Virus record (IMG/VR): IMGVR_UViG_3300030450_001500
Coordinates: 1 to 31,492 of that record
Strand: one strand, 5' to 3'
DNA length: 31,492 nucleotides
From: a virus
Shown here piece after piece: positions 2,955 through 30,530 of this stretch. Position 1 is the stretch's first letter; every line of letters starts with the position of its first letter. The notes under the pieces are model-generated. The model saw nothing but the letters and a program-made list of their open reading frames with translations, did no database searches and was not told the DNA's origin. The position numbers were made by a program, and so were the translations under genes.

Positions 2955-4444
2955 TGGCAATTTGGGATAACCTTTTCAAACAAAGAAAAAAACAAATCAA
3001 ACTCAGAAGAAGCTACAAAGCAGCTTCAAACGCTAATATCTTTTCCGACTTTATCGGCATATCTAGTAATGCAGATAGCACTATACGTTTTAATTTACGA
3101 AAAATAAGAGATAGATGTCGTGAACAAGCGAGAAACAACGATTATGCCAAGCGTTATTTACAGCTTATGACTACTAATGTAGTGGGTCAGAATGGTATTA
3201 GAATACAATCTAAGGCAAGAAACGAAGATGGCTCACTAGATTTTATTGGCAACCAAGTGATTGAGAACGCTTGGAAACAGTGGTCAAAGAAAGGTAACTG
3301 TACTGTTGATGGTAAGTTGTCTTTTGTCGATGCGCAAAAGCTGTTCATAGAATCACTTGCTAGAGATGGCGAGGTCTTAGTCAGACATATCACTACTAAC
3401 AATCCACTTGATCCTTACAAAATCCAGTTCTTAGATGCCGATTATCTTGATGAAGAAGAAAATCAAGTAATGAAAAATGGCGAAGAAACTATTATGGGTG
3501 TCAAGCTTGATGCCAATGGTAAGCCAAAATCATATCTATTGTTCAAAGATCACCCACACAATCAATACTTCGGTAACTACAATAGAGAGCATATTGAGCT
3601 ACCAGCGGATCAGCTTATACACGCTTATGTGCCAGAAAGAGCAGAACAAACAAGAGGTGTGCCTTTTATGACTACAGCACTAACACGTTTAAAAATGCTC
3701 GATGGCTACGAGGAAGCTGAGTTAGTAGCAGCTAGAGTAGGCGCAAGTAAGATGGGTTTCTTTACTTCTCAAAGTGGCGATCAATATACAGGCGATGATT
3801 TAGAAGATGATTACACTCCAATAATGAACGCTGAAGCAGGTACATTCGAGCAACTACCTGATGGTATGGATTTTAAATCTTTCGACCCTCAACACCCAGC
3901 ATCAGGATTTGATAGCTTTCATAAGTCTGTGCTTAGAGGTATAGCTTCTGGGCTTGGTGTCAGCTACGTCTCACTTGCTAATAACTTAGAGGGTGTAAAC
4001 TATTCATCAATCAGACAAGGCACACTAGAAGAAAGAGACAACTTTAGAATTATGCAAAGATTTATGATTGAGCATTTTATCCAACCAGTTTTTGATAAGT
4101 GGTTATTACAAACCATGTCATTCAAAGATGATTTCTTACTACCACCTGATAAGTACAACAAATTTGCTAATAACATAGTCTATATTCCTAGAAGCTGGGG
4201 TTGGATTGACCCTGTTAAAGAAGTCAAAGCTAATGTGGATGGTCTCAATGCTGGGGTAGTCACTATGCAAGATGTCCAAGCCAACTATGGTCGTGACGTT
4301 GAAGAGTTGTTTGAACAACATCAAAGAGAAGAAGAACTAGCCAAACAATACGACATTCAAACAGCTTATCAGCCATTTGGTGCTATGAAGATGCCAGTAG
4401 ATGCTGTTGTGCAAGACGATGGTGAGGCAGACGATGGCGACTAA
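2954..4444 (+). CDS. portal protein (lambda gpB family)
   Basis: Forms the dodecameric ring at the head vertex through which DNA enters and leaves. The 496-residue protein shows the phage_portal_2 pattern: a basic N-terminus, RNNDYAKRYLQLMTTNVVGQNGIRIQ near residues 57-82, SLARDGEVLVRHI near 135, a wing/stem region with HAYVPERAEQTRGVPFMTTALTRLKMLDGYEEAELVAARVGA, and GVNYSSIRQGTLEERD near 350. Length is close to lambda gpB (533). It starts in the stop of the gpW-like gene and ends 11 bases inside the next gene, consistent with a coupled head operon. In lambda the following gene is also a protease, but of a different (ClpP-like) class. Confidence 0.95.
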   Translation: MAIWDNLFKQRKKQIKLRRSYKAASNANIFSDFIGISSNADSTIRFNLRKIRDRCREQARNNDYAKRYLQLMTTNVVGQNGIRIQSKARNEDGSLDFIGNQVIENAWKQWSKKGNCTVDGKLSFVDAQKLFIESLARDGEVLVRHITTNNPLDPYKIQFLDADYLDEEENQVMKNGEETIMGVKLDANGKPKSYLLFKDHPHNQYFGNYNREHIELPADQLIHAYVPERAEQTRGVPFMTTALTRLKMLDGYEEAELVAARVGASKMGFFTSQSGDQYTGDDLEDDYTPIMNAEAGTFEQLPDGMDFKSFDPQHPASGFDSFHKSVLRGIASGLGVSYVSLANNLEGVNYSSIRQGTLEERDNFRIMQRFMIEHFIQPVFDKWLLQTMSFKDDFLLPPDKYNKFANNIVYIPRSWGWIDPVKEVKANVDGLNAGVVTMQDVQANYGRDVEELFEQHQREEELAKQYDIQTAYQPFGAMKMPVDAVVQDDGEADDGD

Positions 4445-7400
4445 TTTTCCCAAACAAGGTGATGACAAAAAGATCTCGTTACGAAACAGTAACTATCCTC
4501 TGTTCGATAGAAGATTCGCAGCATCAATTAAGAAAGACGACCCTAAGATTTGGAAAGCTGGGGGCAATATAGAGGGCAATAACTCTTACAACTTATTGCT
4601 CAGAGCTTTAGATGGCGATGACAGCCCAGCAGTTATTAGAAAAATAAAAGAACGTGAAGCATGGGCAGCACGACATTTTGAAGATGGCGCACAATTTAAA
4701 TCAGGTGATAAGAAAGCTAGACCATCGAACATAGCTGGGGTTGTCGCCCAGATCAAATGGTTGGTCATAGGTACATTAGGTGAGCAAAAGATGAAAGATG
4801 TTATCTTAGAAGCAGTGAAATACCTTGAGGATAAGGAAGATCGTGCTATGGAAAGACAAGTATCAGCTACAGTAGAGAAAGGTCTGCGCAAAAAAGTAGA
4901 AGATCACAACGAAGAATATGGCAACGATAAAAGAAAAAGAGCAACGTATCGTATGCTCCGTGCTGTATTTTTACGAGGTATAGGCGCATATAAAACTAAC
5001 CCTGGTTCAGTCAGACCATCTGTACAATCACCTGAACAATGGGCTTATGCCAGAGTAAATGCTTTCATGTTTGCCCTCAGAAACCTTAGATTCCCAAGCA
5101 AGAATAAATTCGACACTGACTTATTACCTAAAGCTCACCCTTTATCTTCTGATGAAAATGGTGATAGAATACAAAATATGGACACAGAAGCTAGGCAAGA
5201 AACCATAGAATACAAAGTCGTTATTAAAGAAGGCGAAAACAAATATGGAGAGGGTAATAAATTTTACTTGGATGGTGAGCTTTCGCCAAGACTGGTGATG
5301 TTATCAGGTGATACCTATATTTTCGATTTATCCGATAGATCAAATGCTTCTCATGCTTTACGCTTATCCGTTACAGAAGATGGCACACATGGCGATGGCG
5401 AGGCATATACCGATGGTGTAGAAATCATGGGTAAAGCTGGTGAAGAAGGCGCTCAACTTAAAATAACTGTTTCAGATGATACACCAGATCTTTACTATTA
5501 CTGTGTCAATCATGCAGGTATGGGTGGCAAAATTGAAACTAGAGAAGTAGAAGAAACTCGACCTTATCATGACGAAGAAGAAGAAGAAAAAGCTCATCAC
5601 GAAGATGAAGAAAAAGGCATGAAAGACGAAGATGACAGAGCAGAGCTAGACCAAGAGATAAGAGACTTCTATGCCGAAGATGGTCTAAGACGTGATTTTG
5701 AATTCGATAGAAACAAAATTGACGAAGAAAAAAGAACAGTGGTTATAGGTGTGTCAAGCGAAGAACCAGTACAAAGAAGATTTGGTTTTGAAGTGCTTGG
5801 ACATAAAGAAGATGAAATAGATATGGATTTTATGGCAAGTGGTAGAAGTCCATTATTGTTAGACCACGATGCCAGTAAACAAATAGGGGTAGTAGAAGAA
5901 TTTGCTATCGACCCAGAAAACAAAAGAACAGTAGCCAAAGTAAGATTTTCAAAGAACAGAATGGCAGATGAAGTCTTTGAAGATGTCAAAGATGGCATAC
6001 GACAGAACATATCCGTTGGCTATCAAGTCAACAGTATGCAGAAGGAAGATGAAGAAAGAGAGGGTGTTCCTGTCTATCGAGTTAATTCTTGGTCTCCTTT
6101 GGAAGTTTCAGCAGTCAGCGTACCAGCAGACCAGTCACGTTTAGTTGGCTTCGCTAGATCTAAAGAAACACCAAAAATAACTATTAATTCAAATAAGGAT
6201 AAAATTATGGAAAACGTAGAAAATAATACTCCAGAAGTGAATCCTGAAGAGTTAAGAAAACAATTTGCACAAGAAGCAAAGCAAATTAGCGACCTTGGAC
6301 AACAACATGGACAAGCTGGATTAGCTAAAGATGCTATTGCTAAAGGCATGAGACTTAACGAATTTCAGAATGAACTTTTGAAAGCATTAGAAAGCAAACC
6401 TCTTGATTTACCTTCTGACGTTGATATGAAAACTGAAGAGAAAAGAGAATACTCTTTACTTAAGGCTATTCAAGAATCAGCGAATGGCAATCTAACAGGT
6501 CTCGAAAGAGAAGTGTCAGACGAAATTGCTCACAGAACAGGCAAAGCAGCAAGAGGATTTTATATGCCAACTAATATTGGTTTCGGCAAAAGAGACCAAA
6601 CAGTTGGATCAAACAGTGGCGGTGGCTTCTTAAAAGGCACAGATCATCTGGCCAACGAATTTATCGAAGCTGTTTATGCAAAATTGGTCATAGGCGCGGC
6701 TGGGGCTAGGACCTTAACCGGTTTAAAAGGGGACGTGGCGATACCGAAACTATCTGCTTCTGTCACAAACTCAGCTTTTGTAGCAGAAAATGCAGCTCCA
6801 AGTGAAGGTTCAGCTACTTTTGCACAAGTAACAATGTCACCAAAAACTTTGGCAGCATTTATAGATGTTTCAAGAAAGCTTATGCTTCAATCTGATCCGT
6901 CAGTCGAAGCTGTATTGAGAGAAGATATCATCAATACTTTTGCTAGAAAGATCGATGAAGTAGCTATCGAAGGTGGTGCAAGTAATCACCCAAGCGGTAT
7001 TATTGCTTCTGTATCTAACAATATTGTAGGTCTTGGCTCAAATGGTGCAGCAATAGCTTATACAAATATTGTTGAGTTGATAAAAGCAGTAGAAGAAGAT
7101 AACGCTATCAGAAATGATGCCTCAACTAAGTTCTTAGGTAATTCAAAAGTTACAGCTAAATTAAGAACAACTGCAAAACAAAGCAGTGGTGTTGAGGGTA
7201 ACTTCATATTAGAGCCTAACAATACAATGCTAGGATATGATTATCTATCATCCTCATTAGTGCCATCTGACCTAAGTAAAGGTTCAGGTAGCAACTTGTC
7301 AGCTTTAATATTTGGTGACTTCAGTCAGGTCTTACTTGGGTATTACTCAGGTGTTGACGTTGTTGTAGATCCATACACAGGATCAAGTGCAGGTACTACC

Positions 7401-7484
7401 AGACTTGCCTTCTTCCAAGATATGGATGTTGCAATTAGAGACGAAAATGCTTTTGCAGTATGTAAAGACATTGTCACTACTTAA
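4434..7484 (+). CDS. polyprotein: structural domain, cupredoxin-like domain, prohead protease, major capsid protein
   Basis: One 1016-residue frame carries most of head assembly. I place the start at ATG 4434 (GGTGAGG six bases upstream) rather than 4401. Approximate order: 1-160 helical domain; 170-235 with RGIGAY...SVRP...QWAYARVNAF, a motif I associate with phage structural proteins; 258-372 cupredoxin-like domain with His307, Cys357, His360 and Met363; 375-405 acidic linker; 410-575 HK97-type prohead serine protease (LLLDHD, His478; NISVGY, Ser527); 592-1016 HK97-fold capsid. The protease would cleave the scaffold and maturing capsid. Whether the full chain is made and auto-cleaved, or the capsid comes mainly from the internal start at 6207, cannot be told from sequence. 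Confidence 0.9.
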   Translation: MATNFPKQGDDKKISLRNSNYPLFDRRFAASIKKDDPKIWKAGGNIEGNNSYNLLLRALDGDDSPAVIRKIKEREAWAARHFEDGAQFKSGDKKARPSNIAGVVAQIKWLVIGTLGEQKMKDVILEAVKYLEDKEDRAMERQVSATVEKGLRKKVEDHNEEYGNDKRKRATYRMLRAVFLRGIGAYKTNPGSVRPSVQSPEQWAYARVNAFMFALRNLRFPSKNKFDTDLLPKAHPLSSDENGDRIQNMDTEARQETIEYKVVIKEGENKYGEGNKFYLDGELSPRLVMLSGDTYIFDLSDRSNASHALRLSVTEDGTHGDGEAYTDGVEIMGKAGEEGAQLKITVSDDTPDLYYYCVNHAGMGGKIETREVEETRPYHDEEEEEKAHHEDEEKGMKDEDDRAELDQEIRDFYAEDGLRRDFEFDRNKIDEEKRTVVIGVSSEEPVQRRFGFEVLGHKEDEIDMDFMASGRSPLLLDHDASKQIGVVEEFAIDPENKRTVAKVRFSKNRMADEVFEDVKDGIRQNISVGYQVNSMQKEDEEREGVPVYRVNSWSPLEVSAVSVPADQSRLVGFARSKETPKITINSNKDKIMENVENNTPEVNPEELRKQFAQEAKQISDLGQQHGQAGLAKDAIAKGMRLNEFQNELLKALESKPLDLPSDVDMKTEEKREYSLLKAIQESANGNLTGLEREVSDEIAHRTGKAARGFYMPTNIGFGKRDQTVGSNSGGGFLKGTDHLANEFIEAVYAKLVIGAAGARTLTGLKGDVAIPKLSASVTNSAFVAENAAPSEGSATFAQVTMSPKTLAAFIDVSRKLMLQSDPSVEAVLREDIINTFARKIDEVAIEGGASNHPSGIIASVSNNIVGLGSNGAAIAYTNIVELIKAVEEDNAIRNDASTKFLGNSKVTAKLRTTAKQSSGVEGNFILEPNNTMLGYDYLSSSLVPSDLSKGSGSNLSALIFGDFSQVLLGYYSGVDVVVDPYTGSSAGTTRLAFFQDMDVAIRDENAFAVCKDIVTT
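6195..6199 (+). promoter_or_regulatory. internal ribosome binding site for capsid start
   Basis: AAGGA seven bases before the in-frame ATG at 6207, inside the protease-capsid frame. It lies in an A-rich, unstructured stretch between the end of the protease domain and the capsid N-terminus, where an initiation site would be expected if the capsid is made separately. Confidence 0.7.
6207..7484 (+). CDS. major capsid protein from internal start
   Basis: In-frame internal initiation inside the polyprotein gives a free 425-residue HK97-type major capsid protein. The ATG at 6207 is preceded by AAGGA at 6195-6199 with a seven-base spacer, one of the best ribosome binding sites in the window, and lies just after the protease domain ends. 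The product has a charged helical N-terminal delta/scaffold-like region (about 1-110), then the capsid fold: GGGFLKGTDHLANEFIEAV, the SVTNSAFVAENAAPSE region, and a C-terminal AFFQDMDVAIRDENAFAVCKDI block, all typical of phage_capsid proteins. Nested expression would supply capsid subunits in excess of protease. HK97-fold capsid is firm; use of this start is inferred. Confidence 0.8.
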   Translation: MENVENNTPEVNPEELRKQFAQEAKQISDLGQQHGQAGLAKDAIAKGMRLNEFQNELLKALESKPLDLPSDVDMKTEEKREYSLLKAIQESANGNLTGLEREVSDEIAHRTGKAARGFYMPTNIGFGKRDQTVGSNSGGGFLKGTDHLANEFIEAVYAKLVIGAAGARTLTGLKGDVAIPKLSASVTNSAFVAENAAPSEGSATFAQVTMSPKTLAAFIDVSRKLMLQSDPSVEAVLREDIINTFARKIDEVAIEGGASNHPSGIIASVSNNIVGLGSNGAAIAYTNIVELIKAVEEDNAIRNDASTKFLGNSKVTAKLRTTAKQSSGVEGNFILEPNNTMLGYDYLSSSLVPSDLSKGSGSNLSALIFGDFSQVLLGYYSGVDVVVDPYTGSSAGTTRLAFFQDMDVAIRDENAFAVCKDIVTT

Positions 7485-19045: not shown

Positions 19046-19200
19046 GTTGGTGGGCAAAGTTTATAGACGTGATGACTGGCACACATCGTAAAAAAGTTCG
19101 TGCTAGAAACGACAAAGGTCAATATATAGGTGACGACAAATCAACACCTGATGTTAATGAGGCTTACAAGGAAATAAGGGTAAAAACTAAGAAAAAGTAA
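19042..19200 (+). CDS. small basic protein
   Basis: 52-residue protein starting MSWWAKFIDVMTGTHRKKVR, rich in Lys and Arg, with an amphipathic N-terminal helix carrying two Trp and a lysine tail (KTKKK). AAGGAG at 19031-19036 gives a strong ribosome site five bases before ATG 19042, and the start overlaps the previous stop (ATGA). It is the last gene before the long-loop inverted repeat, so it closes the tail-fibre operon. The amphipathic Trp-rich start could lie on membrane surfaces. Function unknown. Confidence 0.65.
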   Translation: MSWWAKFIDVMTGTHRKKVRARNDKGQYIGDDKSTPDVNEAYKEIRVKTKKK

Positions 19201-19264
19201 AAGGGCTGGTACAACCTTTTATTCATATTGATTTCCTAAATATATTCTCGAGACCAGCCCTTTT
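19199..19264. terminator. 12-bp inverted repeat with 42-base loop, terminator-like
   Basis: AAAAGGGCTGGT (19199-19210) pairs perfectly with ACCAGCCCTTTT (19253-19264); T-rich sequence follows (CTTGTT). It begins inside the stop of the small basic gene and ends seven bases before the ATG at 19271. A strong stem with Ts after it looks like a terminator, but the loop is far longer than usual (42 bases, AT-rich), which leaves room for another function such as RNA processing or a protein site. Confidence 0.65.
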
Positions 19265-21602: not shown

Positions 21603-22617
21603 CACGATAGGCGATATTTCAGAACTTAAAGGCTTTGGACAGATAGTTCGAGACCAACCTTATCCAGCAGTCTTAGATTTTGCCATAGAATCTTACGACA
21701 ACGTACAGACTAGGGCAGGTCGTGTCGCTATTACCTTCTTAGACAACACACAAGTCCGTTTAACAGAACATTCTAATTTAGTCATAGACGAGTATATCTA
21801 CAACCAAAACAACAGCTCTATGACCCTTAAATTCGCTTCTGGCACTATCAGATTCATTAGTGGGGCGTTGGATAAGCAAAAGGTCAAACTAACGACTGAC
21901 AGCGCTGAGATCGCCATTTTGGGTACAGACTTTACTGTCACAACCACAGAGTTTGGTTCTAGTCTGATAATCTTATTGCCAGATCAATTCGGTAATGCTA
22001 GTGGTGAGATTATTGTCTCGACAGGAGCAGGGCAAGTCACCCTGAATCAACCCTATCAAGCTACCACAACCAGTGTCTTTGAATCAGCACCCACCAAGCC
22101 AGTGACCTTAGATATTACGTTGGATTTTATAGACAATATGCTTATCATCAATCCGCCTAAAGAAGTCGTTGTGCAAGAAGAAGAAAGCCGACAACAGACT
22201 GACTATTTGGATTACAACGAATTAGATGTGGATTTATTGGCTGAAGATTTTCTCAAGCTTGATGAAGATTTTGAGTTTACTGAGTTGGATATAGATTATC
22301 TTGATGTCAACTTTTTAGAAGATCTGTTAGATGTCTTGGATGCACTAGATACAGGCGAGGAACAAGATCAGTTAGCCATCAACCTAGAATCAGCCAACAT
22401 TAGTGGAACAAGCATAGGGCAAGATACCGAAACTCAGATTACAACCTTTTTACAGGGTGAACGCTTGTCTATGCAAAGGGTAGTCAATCAACAGGCTTAT
22501 CTTGATTTAGATAGCAGTGGCGCATACACAGTCATCTTCATCCAAGATGGGGTCAGTAAGACTGTCAAAATCAATGGTGGGTCATCATCTAGTATTACCA
22601 TTACCCAAAACCCATGA
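21541..22617 (+). CDS. secreted FecR-domain protein with acidic Leu/Asp tract
   Basis: 358 residues. A signal peptide (MARIALFVLCKMMVALPLHA-DTIG) supports start 21541; ATG 21574 is an alternative that shortens the overlap with the curlin-like gene from 62 to 29 bases. Residues about 50-165 form a FecR domain: AGRVAITFLDNTQVRLTEHSNLVIDEYIYN, SMTLKFASGTIRFISG, TDSAEIAILGTDFTV. In bacteria such domains sense or bind ligands in the periplasm. Residues about 215-280 are extremely rich in Asp, Glu and Leu (YLDYNELDVDLLAED and related). The gene overlaps the CHASE2-cyclase by four bases, a pairing also known in bacterial genomes, which suggests it works with the cyclase sensor. Confidence 0.85.
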   Translation: MARIALFVLCKMMVALPLHADTIGDISELKGFGQIVRDQPYPAVLDFAIESYDNVQTRAGRVAITFLDNTQVRLTEHSNLVIDEYIYNQNNSSMTLKFASGTIRFISGALDKQKVKLTTDSAEIAILGTDFTVTTTEFGSSLIILLPDQFGNASGEIIVSTGAGQVTLNQPYQATTTSVFESAPTKPVTLDITLDFIDNMLIINPPKEVVVQEEESRQQTDYLDYNELDVDLLAEDFLKLDEDFEFTELDIDYLDVNFLEDLLDVLDALDTGEEQDQLAINLESANISGTSIGQDTETQITTFLQGERLSMQRVVNQQAYLDLDSSGAYTVIFIQDGVSKTVKINGGSSSSITITQNP

Positions 22618-24353
22618 TAAGAATAGGCTTGGCACTCATAACTTTGTTAGCTTTACCACTAGCATTACAAGTCACACCCTTAGAGATTCTAAAGCTGAAA
22701 GTCTTTGATACTTTTGTGGAGAAACATAAACCAAGCGAATACTTTACCATCTTAAATATAACTGACAGTGATGTTAGGGCAGAGGGTGGTTATCCCTTTC
22801 CAAGACAAAGATTGGCAGAAATCAACGAGCAAATCATGGCAAAGGGCGCATTGGGTGTAGGTTTTGTTATATCCTTTATAGACAAAGATCGGTTTGGTGG
22901 TGACAGCTTGTTCCTCAATTCCATACAACAGCATAGTACAGTTGTTGCCACCTTCGAGACTGACAATGGCTTATATCCTAAACCTACAGGTACAGTCTTA
23001 TTAGGTGAAGAAACGACAGGCATACAGCTACAAGGATATATGCCAAACATACCTTTGATAGCTGACGTGGCACTTGAGGGTATGGTTTCAGCCCCAGTTG
23101 ATGCCGATAATTTAGTAAGACGATTACCTTTGCTACTGCAAACACCTGATGGCTGGATTCCTAGTTTCGGCACTCAGGTACTCAAAAGCCTAGTGGGTGC
23201 TGACACTTTTATTATCAAAACAAATCAAGCTGGTATAGAAGAAATCAGGGTTAGAGGTTTACCGCAGACCAAAGTGGACAGTTTAGGGCGACAATGGATC
23301 AGTTGGGTTGACACACCCCAAACTACACTGCAAGAAATGGCTGTCAAAGATAAGTTTGTGTTTGTTGGTGTGACAGCTAAAGGGGTTATGCCTCAACTAG
23401 CTACACCAGTCGGTCTGTTAGAGCCACACAAGATACAAGCTTTTTTAGCTGAATCAATGCTTATACCTAACAGCCCTTACATACCATATTGGCATTTAGT
23501 GGCTGAATTATCTGCTTTGCTGATTTTGTGTGTCTTTATTTGGCTTGTAAGCTCTTTTCTAGGTCTTACTTGGTCTATCACCCTTGGTTCTGTAATCTTT
23601 TGCTCTACAGCTTTATATGGCTACTACACGATCAGAACAGGTCTTTTGCTGGATTTTAGTTACACTTTGATATCAGAGTTTGTGACAGCTAGTGTCGCTT
23701 ACTATTTAAACTTCCGTAAACAGTACAAATTACGTCAACAAATCAAAAAACAGTTTGAGCATTACCTTGACCCAAGACAAGTCAAACGTCTGCAAGACGA
23801 TCCAAGTTTGCTGAAGCTTGGTGGCGAGAAGCGTTATTGCACATATTTATTTACAGATGTCAGGGGTTTTACTGTGTTGTCAGAAACTAAATCACCAGAG
23901 GAAGTCACAGCTATTATGAACAAAGCATTAACCATACAAGCCAAAGCTGTACAAGAGCATGGTGGTATGGTTGATAAGTATATTGGTGATGCGATGATGG
24001 CTATATTTAATGCGCCCATAGATTTAGCAAAACATGAAGAGGCAGCAATCAAAGCTGCTCTACAAATAAAACACGAAATGCAAGAAGCACAGTTAGGTAT
24101 TGATATTGGTATAGGGATAAATGCAGGAGAAGCTGTGTTAGGTAATATGGGGTCTGATGCACGATTTGACTATACTGCCATAGGTGATGCCGTAAATACA
24201 GCAGCACGATTAGAAAGTGCTACTAAAGAAGTTGGAGTAGATTTATTAATTGGTGAAAGTACCGCACAAGCAGTTGATTATGAGTTACAATCATTGAAGC
24301 CGATCAAAGTGAAAGGCAAAGCAAAACCGCTAAAAATATATACTTATGGTTGA
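22614..24353 (+). CDS. CHASE2-domain class III adenylate (nucleotidyl) cyclase
   Basis: 579 residues. A membrane helix (1-20) leads to an extracytoplasmic CHASE2 sensor (about 25-285, FTILNITDSDVRAEGGYPFPRQ), then three membrane helices (about 296-365) and a linker helix to the cytoplasmic catalytic domain (400-579). That domain has YLFTDVRGFT (metal Asp415), DKYIGDAMM (Lys455, metal Asp459), FDYTAIGDAVNTAARLE (Thr521, Asn528, Arg532). Both metal Asp, the purine-selecting Lys/Thr pair and the transition-state Asn/Arg are present, so an active ATP-to-cAMP enzyme is expected; Thr instead of Asp is the class IIIb mark. It would work as a homodimer. ATGs overlap the FecR gene and the nuclease gene. 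Confidence 0.95.
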   Translation: MIRIGLALITLLALPLALQVTPLEILKLKVFDTFVEKHKPSEYFTILNITDSDVRAEGGYPFPRQRLAEINEQIMAKGALGVGFVISFIDKDRFGGDSLFLNSIQQHSTVVATFETDNGLYPKPTGTVLLGEETTGIQLQGYMPNIPLIADVALEGMVSAPVDADNLVRRLPLLLQTPDGWIPSFGTQVLKSLVGADTFIIKTNQAGIEEIRVRGLPQTKVDSLGRQWISWVDTPQTTLQEMAVKDKFVFVGVTAKGVMPQLATPVGLLEPHKIQAFLAESMLIPNSPYIPYWHLVAELSALLILCVFIWLVSSFLGLTWSITLGSVIFCSTALYGYYTIRTGLLLDFSYTLISEFVTASVAYYLNFRKQYKLRQQIKKQFEHYLDPRQVKRLQDDPSLLKLGGEKRYCTYLFTDVRGFTVLSETKSPEEVTAIMNKALTIQAKAVQEHGGMVDKYIGDAMMAIFNAPIDLAKHEEAAIKAALQIKHEMQEAQLGIDIGIGINAGEAVLGNMGSDARFDYTAIGDAVNTAARLESATKEVGVDLLIGESTAQAVDYELQSLKPIKVKGKAKPLKIYTYG

Positions 24354-26254: not shown

Positions 26255-26289
26255 AAAAAAGTATATACTTTTTTACAATAAAGTATTGT
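26255..26289. promoter_or_regulatory. stacked dyads in the divergent control region (operator candidates)
   Basis: A perfect 20-bp palindrome at 26255-26274 (six A, GTATATAC, six T) is followed directly by ACAATA-AAG-TATTGT at 26275-26289. Both lie between the leftward RHH/exonuclease genes and the rightward replication genes, overlapping the predicted rightward -35 element. Such dyads are typical binding sites for dimeric repressors, with the RHH-like protein the obvious candidate. Confidence 0.7.
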
Positions 26290-26299
26290 TTTTTATACA
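26272..26299 (+). promoter_or_regulatory. rightward early promoter
   Basis: TTTACA (26272-26277) and TATACA (26294-26299) are separated by 16 bases, about 35 bases before the ATG at 26334. The -35 box overlaps the large palindrome and the spacer contains the smaller one, so binding of a repressor there would block it. Confidence 0.65.
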
Positions 26300-26333
26300 A
26301 AGCTAGTTTAGGGTTGTAGGTATAGGAGATTAT

Positions 26334-26507
26334 ATGATAGATCAAAAAATTGACAGACTAATACGTTTATCAGATAAATGTTTCGCCAAAGGGCAGACAG
26401 AGAGAGGAGATAAGTGCTGGGCAGAAGCTCAGCGCTTGGTGATGCAGAGAGATAAGTGCCGACACCATGAGGCATTCAATTACATAGTGGGGTACAAGTA
26501 TGACTAA
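26334..26507 (+). CDS. small cysteine/charged protein
   Basis: 57 residues from ATG 26334, with AGGAG (26324-26328) five bases upstream. The start is MIDQKIDRLIRLSDKCFAKG; later QRDKCRHHEAFNYIVGYKY. Three Cys and two adjacent His occur, and the protein is probably helical. It is the first gene of the rightward early operon and ends overlapping the next ATG by eight bases. I do not recognise it; an early host-takeover or regulatory role would fit the place. Confidence 0.65.
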   Translation: MIDQKIDRLIRLSDKCFAKGQTERGDKCWAEAQRLVMQRDKCRHHEAFNYIVGYKYD

Positions 26508-26589
26508 GCAAGATTTATACGATGTTATTGGTGGCATATTCTTAGTTGTGATCTGGTCGTTAATTATCATTATGATGTTTGGCTTATGA
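26500..26589 (+). CDS. 29-residue membrane miniprotein
   Basis: MTKQDLYDVIGGIFLVVIWS then a hydrophobic end: one predicted membrane helix spanning residues 9-27. ATG 26500 lies inside the gene before and the stop overlaps the next ATG (TTATGA), so translation is probably coupled through all three. It is short enough that one cannot exclude a chance frame, but the overlaps on both sides and the hydrophobic composition support it. Confidence 0.5.
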   Translation: MTKQDLYDVIGGIFLVVIWSLIIIMMFGL

Positions 26590-26756
26590 AGAGAGAAAGC
26601 ATCAAAAAAGAGTTTTTAAGTTATGCCATTAACAAAATGATCTGGTGTAATTATGAACGCTTTCAGTATGGCGAACCAGAGTTCGCTGATGTTGAAAGTT
26701 TTATTAAACATTATCCACATATTTTGGATGATTGGCTAAATGAGAAGAAGGAGTAA
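26586..26756 (+). CDS. small acidic/helical early protein
   Basis: 56 residues starting MKRESIKKEFLSYAINKMIW and containing GEPEFADVESFIKHYPHILDDWLNEKKE. It looks helical with a Trp/Tyr-rich core. The start overlaps the preceding stop, and GAAGAAGGAG at its 3' end is the ribosome site of the SSB-like gene. No family is recognised. The gene order suggests an early function. Confidence 0.6.
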   Translation: MKRESIKKEFLSYAINKMIWCNYERFQYGEPEFADVESFIKHYPHILDDWLNEKKE

Positions 26757-26758
26757 TT

Positions 26759-27307
26759 ATGTCTTTTTTAGAATTAGACGATAAGGAAGGTCTAGGTATG
26801 TATATTAAACATGACTTTAGGCTGGGTAAATTCGTAATAAATAACGCTGAAGGTGTTGAGCCTTTGGACTTTGAATATATGTTAATTGATACAGATTTTC
26901 AGACTGGCTATGGTAAATACGATGGTCAGTATCAATTTGTCTGGGATCAGCAGGTAGGTGTCAAACCTGATAACGCTAAAGATCTTGTGGCACAAGATTA
27001 CAAGAGAGCTTTCTCAGCTAGAATCTACATAAAAGATAAAGGTGTATATCTCTGGCAAAGGTTTGGTTTATTAGAAGGTCAAACTTTTGATGAAGCTATG
27101 TCGGCTGCATGGAAGCATAAAGAAGAGGGTAAAGTGCCTTGTTTCAAATATGCTGGGTCAGAGAAGATTACCTTTTCAGGCGGCGCTAGTGGCTTCAAAG
27201 GTAAGCTCGAATATGTCAAATGGGTTGATAAACCAGCCGATTTTGACGAGCCAGTAGAGATGCAAGACAAGCCATCAGACGACCTAGAAGATGGGATACC
27301 CTTCTAA
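26759..27307 (+). CDS. SSB-like single-stranded DNA binding protein
   Basis: 182 residues with a strong AAGGAG ribosome site about five bases before ATG 26759. The body is beta-rich with many aromatic residues (FEYMLIDTDFQTGYGKYDGQYQFVWD; VYLWQRFG), as expected for OB-fold DNA binding, and the end is an acidic linker closing with DDLEDGIPF, nearly the DDDIPF tip of bacterial SSB that recruits replication and repair proteins. Its place before a helicase and in the early operon agrees. The central part has no family I can name, so the call rests on tip, composition and context. Confidence 0.75.
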   Translation: MSFLELDDKEGLGMYIKHDFRLGKFVINNAEGVEPLDFEYMLIDTDFQTGYGKYDGQYQFVWDQQVGVKPDNAKDLVAQDYKRAFSARIYIKDKGVYLWQRFGLLEGQTFDEAMSAAWKHKEEGKVPCFKYAGSEKITFSGGASGFKGKLEYVKWVDKPADFDEPVEMQDKPSDDLEDGIPF

Positions 27308-27310
27308 TGA

Positions 27311-27405
27311 AAGTTAGCAGGAAGTTAATGGTAAACGGCTAGGTGAGGTCGATATGTATGGTTGATCCTGCTAACTTGTCTTATCAATCAACCATACAAC
27401 TCACC
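27311..27405 (+). promoter_or_regulatory. interlocked inverted repeats (pseudoknot leader or origin)
   Basis: Two perfect inverted repeats cross each other. Stem A: AAGTTAGCAGGA (27311-27322) with TCCTGCTAACTT (27366-27377). Stem B: TGTATGGTTGAT (27355-27366) with ATCAACCATACA (27387-27398), extended outward by GGTGAG (27342-27347) with CTCACC (27400-27405). B's left arm lies in A's loop and its right arm lies after A, so in RNA they form an H-type pseudoknot with coaxial stems, or two alternative hairpins. It lies eight bases before the helicase ATG (27413) and directly after the SSB-like gene. Confidence 0.8.
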
Positions 27406-27412
27406 ACTTATT

Positions 27413-28513
27413 ATGACTAAAGACAGCCAAAACCCTAGTGGTGTATCTGATATATCTCCTATAAGTGTTGAGACTGCTAGGGTGCATGGCTCTGAGACTA
27501 AGCTATGGGTTGAGAATTTAGGATCTATTTTAGATAAAAAATATCCCAAGCCTGAACCTTTGATTGAGGGTTTGCTGCATAGTGGTACACAAACTATTCT
27601 GTATGGTCGGTCTGGTTCAGGTAAGTCTTACATAACCCAAAAGCTCATGTTGCACTTAGCTATGGGTTTGGACTTTGGTTACTATCAAATACCTAAGTCT
27701 TGCAAGATCTTGTATGTTGATGGCGAGATGTTGCCTTCATCTTTACAAAGCAGATACCTTAAAATGAAACCTAAGTTGTCTAACATGGATGATTGGGTGA
27801 CAGCATTAGAGAATCTACATTACTGTTCTAGGTTTATTCAGCCTGAGTTCAAAGAATTAAATATAGAGACGGGTCAATATGAGTACAGACAATATCCAGA
27901 GATGATGCTCAGAACCTTAGACGACAAAGAGAATATGCAACAACTAATGAACACCATAGACATACATGAGTACGAAGTAGTGGTCATGGATAACATCTTT
28001 ACCCTCTTTGCTTTCGAGGATTTTAGTAGTCCAACAGAGTGGCTTATCCATGTCCAACCTTTTTTGAACTGGTGTCGGCAAAAGAACATCACAGTTTGGA
28101 TTGTGGATCACGCTAGAAAAACCTCAAGTGTAGGGGGTAACTCAGCCCTGTATGGCACTATGGTTAAGACTGTGACTTTAGACTTGCTTATCAATGTTGA
28201 ATCAGAAAAGAAAGAAATAGACTACGATGACGACACTGACATAGAGTTCGGTTTCAAGTGGACATTTGAAAAAGCCAGACACTTGACAGCCTTAGAGCAA
28301 GAAGAGGTTGAGTTTGAAATTAAGAATGGTGATATATTGGTGGTTGAGAATCCTTACAAGAAACAAATGACCGAGGCTAAGAAATACTACGAACAAGGTA
28401 TGCCTCTGCGCAAGATACAAGAAACATTGTTAGAGGAGATCAACTACAATGTTTCACATAGTAAGATCAACAGGTGGGCGAAGAAAGAAGGATGGGTTAG
28501 ACCAATAACATGA
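27413..28513 (+). CDS. RepA/RecA-like AAA ATPase (replicative helicase candidate)
   Basis: 366 residues from ATG 27413; a TTG at 27362 could extend it by 17 residues, but would lie within the structured leader. Walker A GRSGSGKS (about 65-72), Walker B VVVMDN (Asp193) and the core ILYVDGEM, VWIVDHARK and LYGT motifs mark a RecA-fold ATPase of the AAA_25/RepA type, which forms hexameric helicases. The end (residues ~315-365, PLRKIQETLLEEINYNVSHSKINRWAKKEGW) is a winged or simple helix-turn-helix. It overlaps the methyltransferase start by four bases. No primase or polymerase is seen, so the host enzymes would do synthesis. Confidence 0.8.
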   Translation: MTKDSQNPSGVSDISPISVETARVHGSETKLWVENLGSILDKKYPKPEPLIEGLLHSGTQTILYGRSGSGKSYITQKLMLHLAMGLDFGYYQIPKSCKILYVDGEMLPSSLQSRYLKMKPKLSNMDDWVTALENLHYCSRFIQPEFKELNIETGQYEYRQYPEMMLRTLDDKENMQQLMNTIDIHEYEVVVMDNIFTLFAFEDFSSPTEWLIHVQPFLNWCRQKNITVWIVDHARKTSSVGGNSALYGTMVKTVTLDLLINVESEKKEIDYDDDTDIEFGFKWTFEKARHLTALEQEEVEFEIKNGDILVVENPYKKQMTEAKKYYEQGMPLRKIQETLLEEINYNVSHSKINRWAKKEGWVRPIT

Positions 28514-29520
28514 AAGCATTAAGAAATGTTAGCAGACAGAGGATGGTTAGCGCCAAAAAAAATAAAAACGATGACTTTTACACATCCTTATCTGACATAG
28601 AAAAAGAAATTAAACATTATAAAAAACACCTCATTGGCAAAACTATCTATCTAAATTGCGATGACCCAAGAATAAGCAATTTTTTTCATTACTTTTCTTA
28701 TAACTTTAAACAACTAGAATTAAAAAAACTATATTCAACAGCATACAAAAATAATCAAATAGATCTTTTCAGCAACAATAATCAGGAAAAAGGAATATTG
28801 TTGGAATATTCTGGTGACAAAAACGATAATAAAATACCAGACTTAGAAGAAATCAGCATCACCAACCTTAATGGAGATGGAGATTTTAGAAGTAGTGAAT
28901 GCATTGAAGTCTTAGAAAAATCTGACATAGTTGTAACTAACCCGCCATTCTCATTATTTAGAGAATATGTGCAGCAACTTATCGAACACGATAAAAAATT
29001 TATAATTATGGGGCACCAAAACGCGATTACATATAAAGAAATTTTCTCCTATATTAAAGAAGGTAAAATTTGGTTAGGCCATGACAATGGTGGTACAAAA
29101 TGGTTCGAAGTTAAGAATCACTATGAAATAAAAACAAAATCTCGCCAGAAAACTGAAAATGGTAAAAAATATTTCAGTATGGGCAATGTTGTTTGGTTTA
29201 CAAATTTAGAAATTCAAAAAAGAAAAGAAGAAATAATTTTATACAAAAAATACACAAAAAATGAATACCCAGCTTACGATAACTACAATGCTATTAATGT
29301 AGATAAGGTAACAGAGATTCCATTTGATTATGATGGATATATGGGTGTGCCAATAACATTTTTGGATAAACACAACAAAAATCAATTTGATATTTATGGA
29401 ATTATGAATACTGGTGAAGAAAATAAAGGAATAAGATATCCAGACACTCTTCACGGGAGACCAATAGTTGATGGCAAGGAAAAGTATTTAAGAATATTGA
29501 TAAAAAATAAGGATAGGTGA
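28510..29520 (+). CDS. EcoRI-type adenine-specific DNA methyltransferase
   Basis: 336 residues. The start KKNKNDDFYTSLSDIEKEIKHY, then GKTIYLNCDDPRISNFFHYF, LELKKLYSTAY and the catalytic motif DIVVTNPPFS (NPPF at about 144-147) is that of the EcoRI methylase family, which methylates N6 of adenine (M.EcoRI recognises GAATTC; the target of this enzyme is unknown). No restriction enzyme is next to it, so it is an orphan, likely protecting phage DNA or acting as a regulator. The gene has a visibly higher A content than its neighbours, with many AAA and ATA codons, suggesting a recent arrival. It overlaps the helicase gene by four bases and is followed by the PP-loop gene after a 10-base gap. Confidence 0.9.
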   Translation: MKALRNVSRQRMVSAKKNKNDDFYTSLSDIEKEIKHYKKHLIGKTIYLNCDDPRISNFFHYFSYNFKQLELKKLYSTAYKNNQIDLFSNNNQEKGILLEYSGDKNDNKIPDLEEISITNLNGDGDFRSSECIEVLEKSDIVVTNPPFSLFREYVQQLIEHDKKFIIMGHQNAITYKEIFSYIKEGKIWLGHDNGGTKWFEVKNHYEIKTKSRQKTENGKKYFSMGNVVWFTNLEIQKRKEEIILYKKYTKNEYPAYDNYNAINVDKVTEIPFDYDGYMGVPITFLDKHNKNQFDIYGIMNTGEENKGIRYPDTLHGRPIVDGKEKYLRILIKNKDR

Positions 29521-29530
29521 GACCGACGAA

Positions 29531-30478
29531 ATGAAACAAATGACTTTAAATTTGCCAAGCGCTAACACATATGAGCCAAACCAAGACACTACTTTAATTG
29601 TAAGTTTCAGTGGTGGTCGTACGTCTGGCTACATGACCTATCAACTTTTACAACAAAAAGATCAGTGGAAAGACGTTATTGTCATATTTGCAAACACAGG
29701 ACAAGAGCATGAAGAAACTTACAATTTCATCAACAAATGCGATAAATATTTTGCGTTCAATACAGTTTGGATAGAAGCTGAGATCAATAAACAAAAAGGC
29801 AAAGGTACGAGAGCAAAAGTAGTCAACTACGAGACAGCATCCAGAAAAGGTGAGCCTTTTGAAAAAATGATAGCTAAGTATGGTATGCCTTTTTCCAAAT
29901 CACCAATTTGCACAAGAGAGCTAAAACAATATGCCATACAAGCATATTTGCGAAATATATGTCCAAAAGAGCACAGAATGATGGCAATAGGCATAAGGTC
30001 TGATGAAGCAATCCGTATGGCAAAAAATGCAGTTAGTGAAAATCTTTGTTACCCTTTAGTAGAATGGGATATTGATAAGCAAGATGTTTTAGATTGGTGG
30101 GAAGAGCAGATTTTCGACCTGCAAATACCAGAACATTTTGGCAACTGTGTTTGGTGTTGGAAAAAATCTTATAAAAAACTAATGACTATAATGTTAGAAG
30201 ATCCACAGGCTTTTGACTTTCCAGAACGCATGGAAAAAAAATACGGACAGACAGGGGCTATGGCACAAAATTTAGGCAAAAGAGGTTACTTAAAGAATCA
30301 AAGCAGTATGCGTTTTTTTAGAGGCTGGAAGTCTGTGCAAGACATAAGAGATATGGCTCACGATGGTTTCGACAAATTTATAGATTTACATCATTTACAT
30401 ATCACTAATGGTTGCGAAGATTCTTGTGAACCATTTTTAGATGAACAACCAATAACAATAATTGATGATAAAAATTAG
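29531..30478 (+). CDS. PP-loop ATPase, PAPS-reductase-like
   Basis: 315 residues. The P-loop-like SFSGGRTSGYM at residues 25-35 is the PP-loop of adenine nucleotide alpha-hydrolases of the PAPS reductase group; VIFANTGQEHEETYNF and a CTREL motif (Cys127) follow, with a CVWC pair (Cys206, Cys209) and further Cys near the end (CEDSC), which could hold metal or an iron-sulfur cluster. Phage members of this family are usually of unknown function; related DndC proteins act in DNA phosphorothioation, but no other dnd gene is seen. The GAGACCGACGAA before ATG 29531 provides a weak ribosome site. Being next to the methyltransferase, a role in nucleic acid modification is tempting but unproven. Confidence 0.8.
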   Translation: MKQMTLNLPSANTYEPNQDTTLIVSFSGGRTSGYMTYQLLQQKDQWKDVIVIFANTGQEHEETYNFINKCDKYFAFNTVWIEAEINKQKGKGTRAKVVNYETASRKGEPFEKMIAKYGMPFSKSPICTRELKQYAIQAYLRNICPKEHRMMAIGIRSDEAIRMAKNAVSENLCYPLVEWDIDKQDVLDWWEEQIFDLQIPEHFGNCVWCWKKSYKKLMTIMLEDPQAFDFPERMEKKYGQTGAMAQNLGKRGYLKNQSSMRFFRGWKSVQDIRDMAHDGFDKFIDLHHLHITNGCEDSCEPFLDEQPITIIDDKN

Positions 30479-30488
30479 TGAATATATA

Positions 30489-30530
30489 TGTATCATATAT
30501 CCCCCTCTAAGAGGGGTATATGATGATACA
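30489..30530 (+). repeat. imperfect 18-bp hairpin
   Basis: TGTATCAT (30489-30496) pairs with ATGATACA (30523-30530), ATAT (30497-30500) with ATAT (30518-30521), and CCCCTC (30502-30507) with GAGGGG (30511-30516), closed by TAA; a single bulge (30522) and one mismatch (30501/30517) interrupt it. It lies 11 bases after the PP-loop gene and has no T run afterwards, so it resembles an RNA processing or stability element more than a classic terminator. Confidence 0.65.

Follow-up and report, generated by a model that had tools for sequence, protein, structure and literature searches.

The window, i.e. the whole stretch of DNA that was analysed, is a 31.5-kb virus record that carries tailed-phage genes, namely those for a terminase, a capsid protein in one frame with a protease, and a minor tail protein. 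The terminase is closest to those of Roseobacter phages (about 50 % identity). The 1027-aa ORF at 4401–7484 comprises prohead protease (Peptidase_S78) and Phage_capsid domains, with a weak DUF5824 match in front. A single phage gene at 22614–24353 encodes both a CHASE2 sensor domain and an adenylate/guanylate cyclase catalytic domain (Pfam, 1.1e-29 and 2.5e-20).

The locus considered here is the border between two co-oriented genes. The upstream gene (26759–27307) encodes a protein with an acidic EDGIPF tail, and the label SSB-like, which we use throughout, is based on this tail and on the position of the gene; identity as an SSB is weakly supported. No family match was found for this protein. 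Its predicted fold is beta-rich (pLDDT 76) and gave no significant match when compared to the PDB, several of the weak matches being SSB or RPA OB folds. The downstream gene (27413–28513) encodes a helicase-like ATPase (AAA_25, PF13481, 7.4e-22). Neither protein had a match in a collection of named phages. Before the SSB-like gene, in the region 26280–26760 and the matching parts of L003, L004 and L015 (L numbers designate related records), small ORFs vary in presence among close relatives. The two genes and all elements described below that lie between them are on the + strand.

Between the two genes there are two perfect 12-bp inverted repeats that cross. Arm A1 (27311–27322, AAGTTAGCAGGA; conserved core GTTAGCAGG at 27313–27321) is the 5' strand of helix A and pairs with 27366/27367–27377, and arm A2 (27366–27377, TCCTGCTAACTT), the 3' strand, is joined directly to B1. 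Arms B1 (27355–27366, TGTATGGTTGAT) and B2 (27387–27398, ATCAACCATACA) are the 5' and 3' strands of helix B, and base 27366 is common to B1 and A2. GGTGAG (27342–27347) and CTCACC (27400–27405) form a further complementary pair. An earlier reading of this DNA, made from the sequence only and referred to here as the sequence-only reading, had reported the crossing stems with their one common base and the GGTGAG/CTCACC extension, and each is present at exactly the positions it gave. It had also held that chance was very unlikely to produce this arrangement, and comparison with 399 random windows generated under a first-order (dinucleotide) model agrees. Stems of at least 12 bp with a loop of 80 or less number three in the window, versus a mean of 0.19 per random window, and a crossing pair of stems of at least 12 bp was found in none of the 399. 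A further perfect 12-bp inverted repeat (AAAAGGGCTGGT/ACCAGCCCTTTT, 42-nt spacer) is located at 19199–19264.

The crossing repeats are within a block of about 113 nt (approximately 27308–27420) that is inserted between the SSB-like gene and the helicase gene, and the start codon of the latter is a new one, located at the 3' end of the insert or adjacent to it. The edges of the insert are ambiguous within a direct repeat, CTAA, at 27304–27307 and 27417–27420. Relatives were drawn from IMG/VR, 15 for the helicase and 19 for the SSB-like protein. The block is present in the window, in L001, a record of the same sequence type as the window, and in L004 and L005. It is absent from all other relatives that span the junction, including the three closest to the window. 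In L002, L003, L015 and L024, the empty junction reads ...CATTCTAAAGAC... and the helicase ATG (MAYHSKD...) falls within the final codons of the SSB-like gene, i.e. the genes overlap. The more distant L013, L014 and L037 have the same arrangement, and the overlap is therefore the ancestral state. The ancestral overlapping pair was presumably coupled in translation.

A remnant of the ancestral helicase start (27291–27317, + strand; ATG GGA TAC CCT TCT AAT GAA AGT TAG) can be recognized in the window, and its position corresponds to the MAYHS... helicase N-termini in all of the relatives with overlapping genes listed above. In the window, L004 and L005, the frame opened by the old start ends after eight codons at a TAG within arm A1, and the ATG of the helicase gene is a new one located behind the fold. 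Comparison of the filled and empty junctions shows that the insert separates the helicase from the overlapping start of the ancestral arrangement. Translational bypassing that would join the old start to the old frame was considered, but the new in-frame ATG makes it unnecessary. On the gene trees, the pattern of presence and absence requires at least two changes, either one gain and a loss or two gains. The base triplet just before the insert is CCC in carriers versus CCA in non-carriers of this clade, and this difference, which is a single site, favours one origin followed by later exchange.

A second, diverged copy of the element was found in L004 and L005, directly behind the helicase gene, 1.2 kb away from the first copy and before another gene. 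At the corresponding site, L002 and L003 contain nothing and the window contains a methylase gene and a PAPS-reductase-like gene. The window region between the helicase and DUF3310 genes (28510–30478) encodes this methylase, which is of the EcoRI adenine type (PF13651, 2.9e-124), and the PAPS-reductase-like protein. The methylase and PAPS-like block is absent in L002–L005, and L012 matches only the PAPS-like part. The region is a gene-content hotspot as well as the site of the second copy. The A1 region resembles the methylase N-terminus (28510 on) and also a small L015 gene (GGTGTTAGCAGAA), resemblances that we attribute to chance. Beyond this region, at 30489–30530, a long hairpin (TGTATCATATATCCCCCTCTAAGAGGGGTATATGATGATACA) precedes the DUF3310 gene, whose start, ATG 30520, is in the 3' arm; a leader ORF from the 5' arm ends in an overlapping TGATG. 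In L002 and L003 the hairpin is a compensatory variant, CCCTCTCTAAGAGAGG, and it looks like a translational-coupling leader.

One more copy was found by pattern search in L050, a contig that encodes a primase, an SSB, Sak4 and an exonuclease of its own. This copy is 2.7 kb from the SSB gene of L050 and directly behind a stop codon, and the element is the sole significant DNA match of L050 to the window or to L017. In relatives of L050 that are 74–75 % identical over the upstream gene, the similarity ends at that stop codon and the element is absent. As the second copies and the L050 copy are located elsewhere, an SSB neighbour is no general feature of the element. All of the copies found are single units, one per site.

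Beyond the known copies, relaxed DNA patterns used on IMG/VR and the GTDB genomes recovered only L050, all other matches lacking the arms. We note that the large collections were searched by pattern, which would miss more diverged copies. BLAST searches of phage and plasmid collections with the element returned chance-level short matches only. A search of 22 related records with an RNA model revealed no additional good copy, and a weak match in the record of L121 (E 0.03) scored far below the true copies. Rfam contained no relevant family match for the element at either permissive or gathering thresholds.

Filled and empty sites among close relatives, the second copy in L004 and L005, the isolated copy in L050 and the CTAA repeats that flank the window copy would all be explained by a non-coding mobile element with a fold that promotes the spread of the element itself, either as a miniature element mobilized by a trans-acting enzyme or as an RNA with an activity of its own, any effects on neighbouring genes being a by-product. 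Copies within one genome also differ about as much as copies from different phages. However, the other copies reveal neither a common target site nor a clean duplication, no associated transposase was seen, very few copies are present in IMG/VR, and the element could be dispersed by ordinary recombination between phages at gene borders. Moreover, every copy is behind a gene and in the sense orientation. This points to a function for the gene pair, and we regard a purely self-serving element as rather unlikely.

The alignment of the element includes six distinct copies from few lineages, four of them from two sister phages. Helix A has nine pairs in the shared core, with changes from U-A to G-C, from A-U to G-U and between A-U, G-C and G-U across the copies. 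Helix B has 12 pairs, and in four of them both partners have changed in one or more copies. Over helices A and B and the C pairs (GGTGA/TCACC, see below), 96.9 % of cells pair. There are six doubly changed pairs, compared to 1.7±1.1 after shuffling (1 of 500 shuffles reaches six), and sliding the partners abolishes the covariation signal. With hairpin E (see below) and the C pairing added, seven pairs are doubly changed versus 2.7 in the shuffled alignments. Comparison of the copies thus shows that A and B, which cross and covary, correspond to a predicted H-type pseudoknot in which B1 and A2 adjoin without a spacer. The sequence-only reading had proposed such an RNA pseudoknot and a covariation search for it, and the compensatory changes found in both crossing stems of these diverged copies bear the proposal out. 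Folded alone, stem A and stems B and C together are about equally stable. A two-state switch is possible, and a pseudoknot lets both sets of stems form together.

Wobble pairs in helices A, B and C are G-U and never A-C, and hence the conserved form is the sense-strand RNA. This bears on a further suggestion of the sequence-only reading, that the repeats act as DNA. Perfect inverted repeats near SSB-like and helicase genes are what a replication origin, a repressor palindrome or a recombination site might look like. However, most relatives keep both genes without the element and two genomes carry it twice, and the only wobbles seen are of the kind that preserves pairing in the sense strand. 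Terminator and promoter signals above chance were not detected at the site, and there is no GC-rich stem with a T run. A replication origin, a terminator or a repressor site on double-stranded DNA is unlikely, and we consider a DNA-level explanation very improbable.

The element also includes a predicted hairpin, E, formed by E1 (27334–27340, AACGGCT) and E2 (27347–27353, GGTCGAT). The hexaloop, AGGTGA (27341–27346), resembles a Shine-Dalgarno sequence, and its last five bases, GGTGA (27342–27346), are designated C1. C2 is the CTCACC at 27400–27405, of which TCACC (27401–27405) pairs with the loop. Hairpin E recurs when the copies are folded, with a CGGCU/GGUCG stem and an AGGUGA or UGGUGA loop, and the isolated hairpin has a predicted energy of −4.7 to −5.7 kcal/mol in five of the six copies. 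In the stem, one C-G pair is replaced by A-U in the second copies, and a different C-G pair is replaced by U-G in L050. The loop GGUGA is fully complementary to the UCACC at C2, near the helicase start, and both are invariant in all six copies. A second H-type pseudoknot, interlocked with the first, is therefore supported, but the E/C part is less secure than the A/B part because C never varies and E has only one doubly changed pair. The complete order, A1-E1-C1-E2-B1-A2-B2-C2, would be that of two interlocked H-type pseudoknots. An HDV-like ribozyme has a different order of helices and was rejected. A spliceosomal intron, the signals of which are resembled by GTGAG...TGCTAAC, was likewise rejected, the genome being that of a tailed phage.

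The helicase ATG at 27413 is 7 nt after CTCACC, with ACUUAUU as the spacer. No Shine-Dalgarno sequence was found before it, in agreement with the sequence-only reading. Inside the fold, AGGTGA is a 6-base match to the Shine-Dalgarno consensus AAGGAGGTGAT and is 7 nt before another ATG, at 27354; an identical hexamer is found ahead of the PAPS-like gene at 29531. Neither this internal AGGTGA and ATG nor the fact that the block is an insertion had been noted in the sequence-only reading. ATG 27354 opens a putative mini-ORF (27354–27365; ATG TAT GGT TGA) that would encode MYG. The window and both second copies share MYG*, while the first copies in L004 and L005 have MYGCIC* (six codons) and the L050 mini-ORF has 28 codons and overlaps the next gene; the mini-ORF is kept only as far as the RNA is. 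The first copies and the L050 copy directly follow the upstream stop codon. An ATG is found 7 nt behind the fold in five of the six copies, L050 having no ATG at the usual place. In the second copies this ATG opens a 31-codon ORF and not, directly, the next gene.

The reading we prefer is that the element is a cis-acting RNA module of the sense strand, about 100 nt long, that was inserted between co-oriented genes and controls translation of the next gene. Based on comparison of sequences, we put the chance that this is correct at about even. The folded module would cover the internal Shine-Dalgarno sequence, the start of the mini-ORF and the stretch that precedes the helicase ATG, keeping helicase synthesis low. 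Ribosomes finishing the SSB-like gene would melt A and B and allow the helicase to start by coupling. Alternatively, A and B could be melted by ribosomes that start at the AGGUGA-ATG and stop after MYG. A ligand or a protein, e.g. ribosomal protein S1, may shift the balance between the folded and open forms. Pseudoknots around start sites are known to control translation and to be bound by S1 (PMC10931766), and translational coupling by RNA unfolding is established (PMC12548453).

A strong intercistronic structure that follows a stop codon immediately and is conserved as sense-strand RNA could instead stabilize the upstream mRNA or direct its cleavage, and the ratio of the products would then be set by decay and not by initiation. 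However, the invariant stretches (GGUGAGGUC and UAUGUAUGG) and the spacerless pseudoknot exceed the needs of a blocking hairpin, and we consider this improbable. Equally improbable, in our view, is an operator bound by the SSB-like protein, as the sequence-only reading had suggested, or by another phage protein that represses translation of the next gene in the manner of T4 gp32. The first copies do adjoin the SSB-like gene, and pseudoknot operators are known for T4 gp32 (PMC535899) and for ribosomal proteins (PMC10931766). However, the T4 operator precedes the SSB gene itself and has UUAAA repeats behind it, whereas the element here follows the SSB-like gene. In addition, the second copies and the L050 copy have no adjoining SSB gene, most relatives have the SSB-like protein without the element, and the upstream protein is only putatively an SSB.

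A broader version of the translation-control reading, which we advance more tentatively and think less probable, is that the copies represent a class of mobile, doubly pseudoknotted non-coding modules that move into phage gene borders, break an ancestral overlap and bring their own bridge from stop to start. Such a module would be a portable translation controller, or would have an unrecognised catalytic or ligand-binding activity. Pseudoknots that act in translation have been described before, but usually as a fixed component of a single operon. The fold described here is present or absent among phages with helicases that are at least 95 % identical, occupies two gene borders in a single genome and recurs, by itself, in a phage that is otherwise unrelated. 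With this scattered distribution, it can be tested whether phages exchange regulatory RNA modules separately from genes. Relatives with filled and empty junctions also provide a natural experiment on the effect of an intercistronic pseudoknot on expression of a likely replication gene.

Among known systems, the translational operator of gene 32 in T4 and RB69 is a pseudoknot of about 28 nt before gene 32, bound by the gp32 SSB and followed by a less structured UUAAA region (PMC535899). Like the element, it is a phage mRNA pseudoknot tied to a gene for a protein of the ssDNA-binding type and to a start site. However, the element is about 100 nt, has two interlocked pseudoknots and is also found at sites without an SSB gene. 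In the window, L004 and L005 it is behind the SSB-like gene, in place of the T4-type position upstream, and the 7 nt of ACUUAUU between the fold and the start contain no UUAAA or UAAA repeats. The STAXI motif consists of two or three tandem pseudoknots, often with UUCG loops, near SSB, topoisomerase, antirestriction and integrase genes (PMC2864571). Proximity of a candidate pseudoknot RNA to an SSB-like gene is shared, but the element is one unit per site and has no UUCG loop. The STAXI covariance model gave no match to the window element or to L050 up to E = 10, and none at the gathering score in the window.

The E. coli alpha operon/S4, rpsO/S15 and rpmI-rplT/L20 operators are pseudoknots (PMC10931766). 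They resemble the element as start-region pseudoknots that control translation of co-transcribed genes. In the S4 and S15 operators, the pseudoknot takes in the start region of the regulated gene itself, whereas here the Shine-Dalgarno sequence that would be covered is that of the mini-ORF, the regulated start has none, and no ribosomal-protein gene is involved. In repY-repZ of ColIb-P9, a leader peptide and a pseudoknot control a replication gene that follows them, and an antisense RNA is involved. The element likewise has a putative leader ORF and a pseudoknot ahead of a likely replication gene, but there is no sequence relation and no sign here of the antisense RNA that is a feature of repZ control. 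MITEs and REP/REPIN elements are miniature mobile elements, short non-coding inserts with inverted repeats. The terminal inverted repeats and target-site duplication of MITEs were not found, the CTAA repeat being present only at the window copy. The element has filled and empty sites at several locations, as MITEs and REP/REPIN elements do, but it differs from them in that its inner stems cross and the wobble pattern points to constraint on the RNA.
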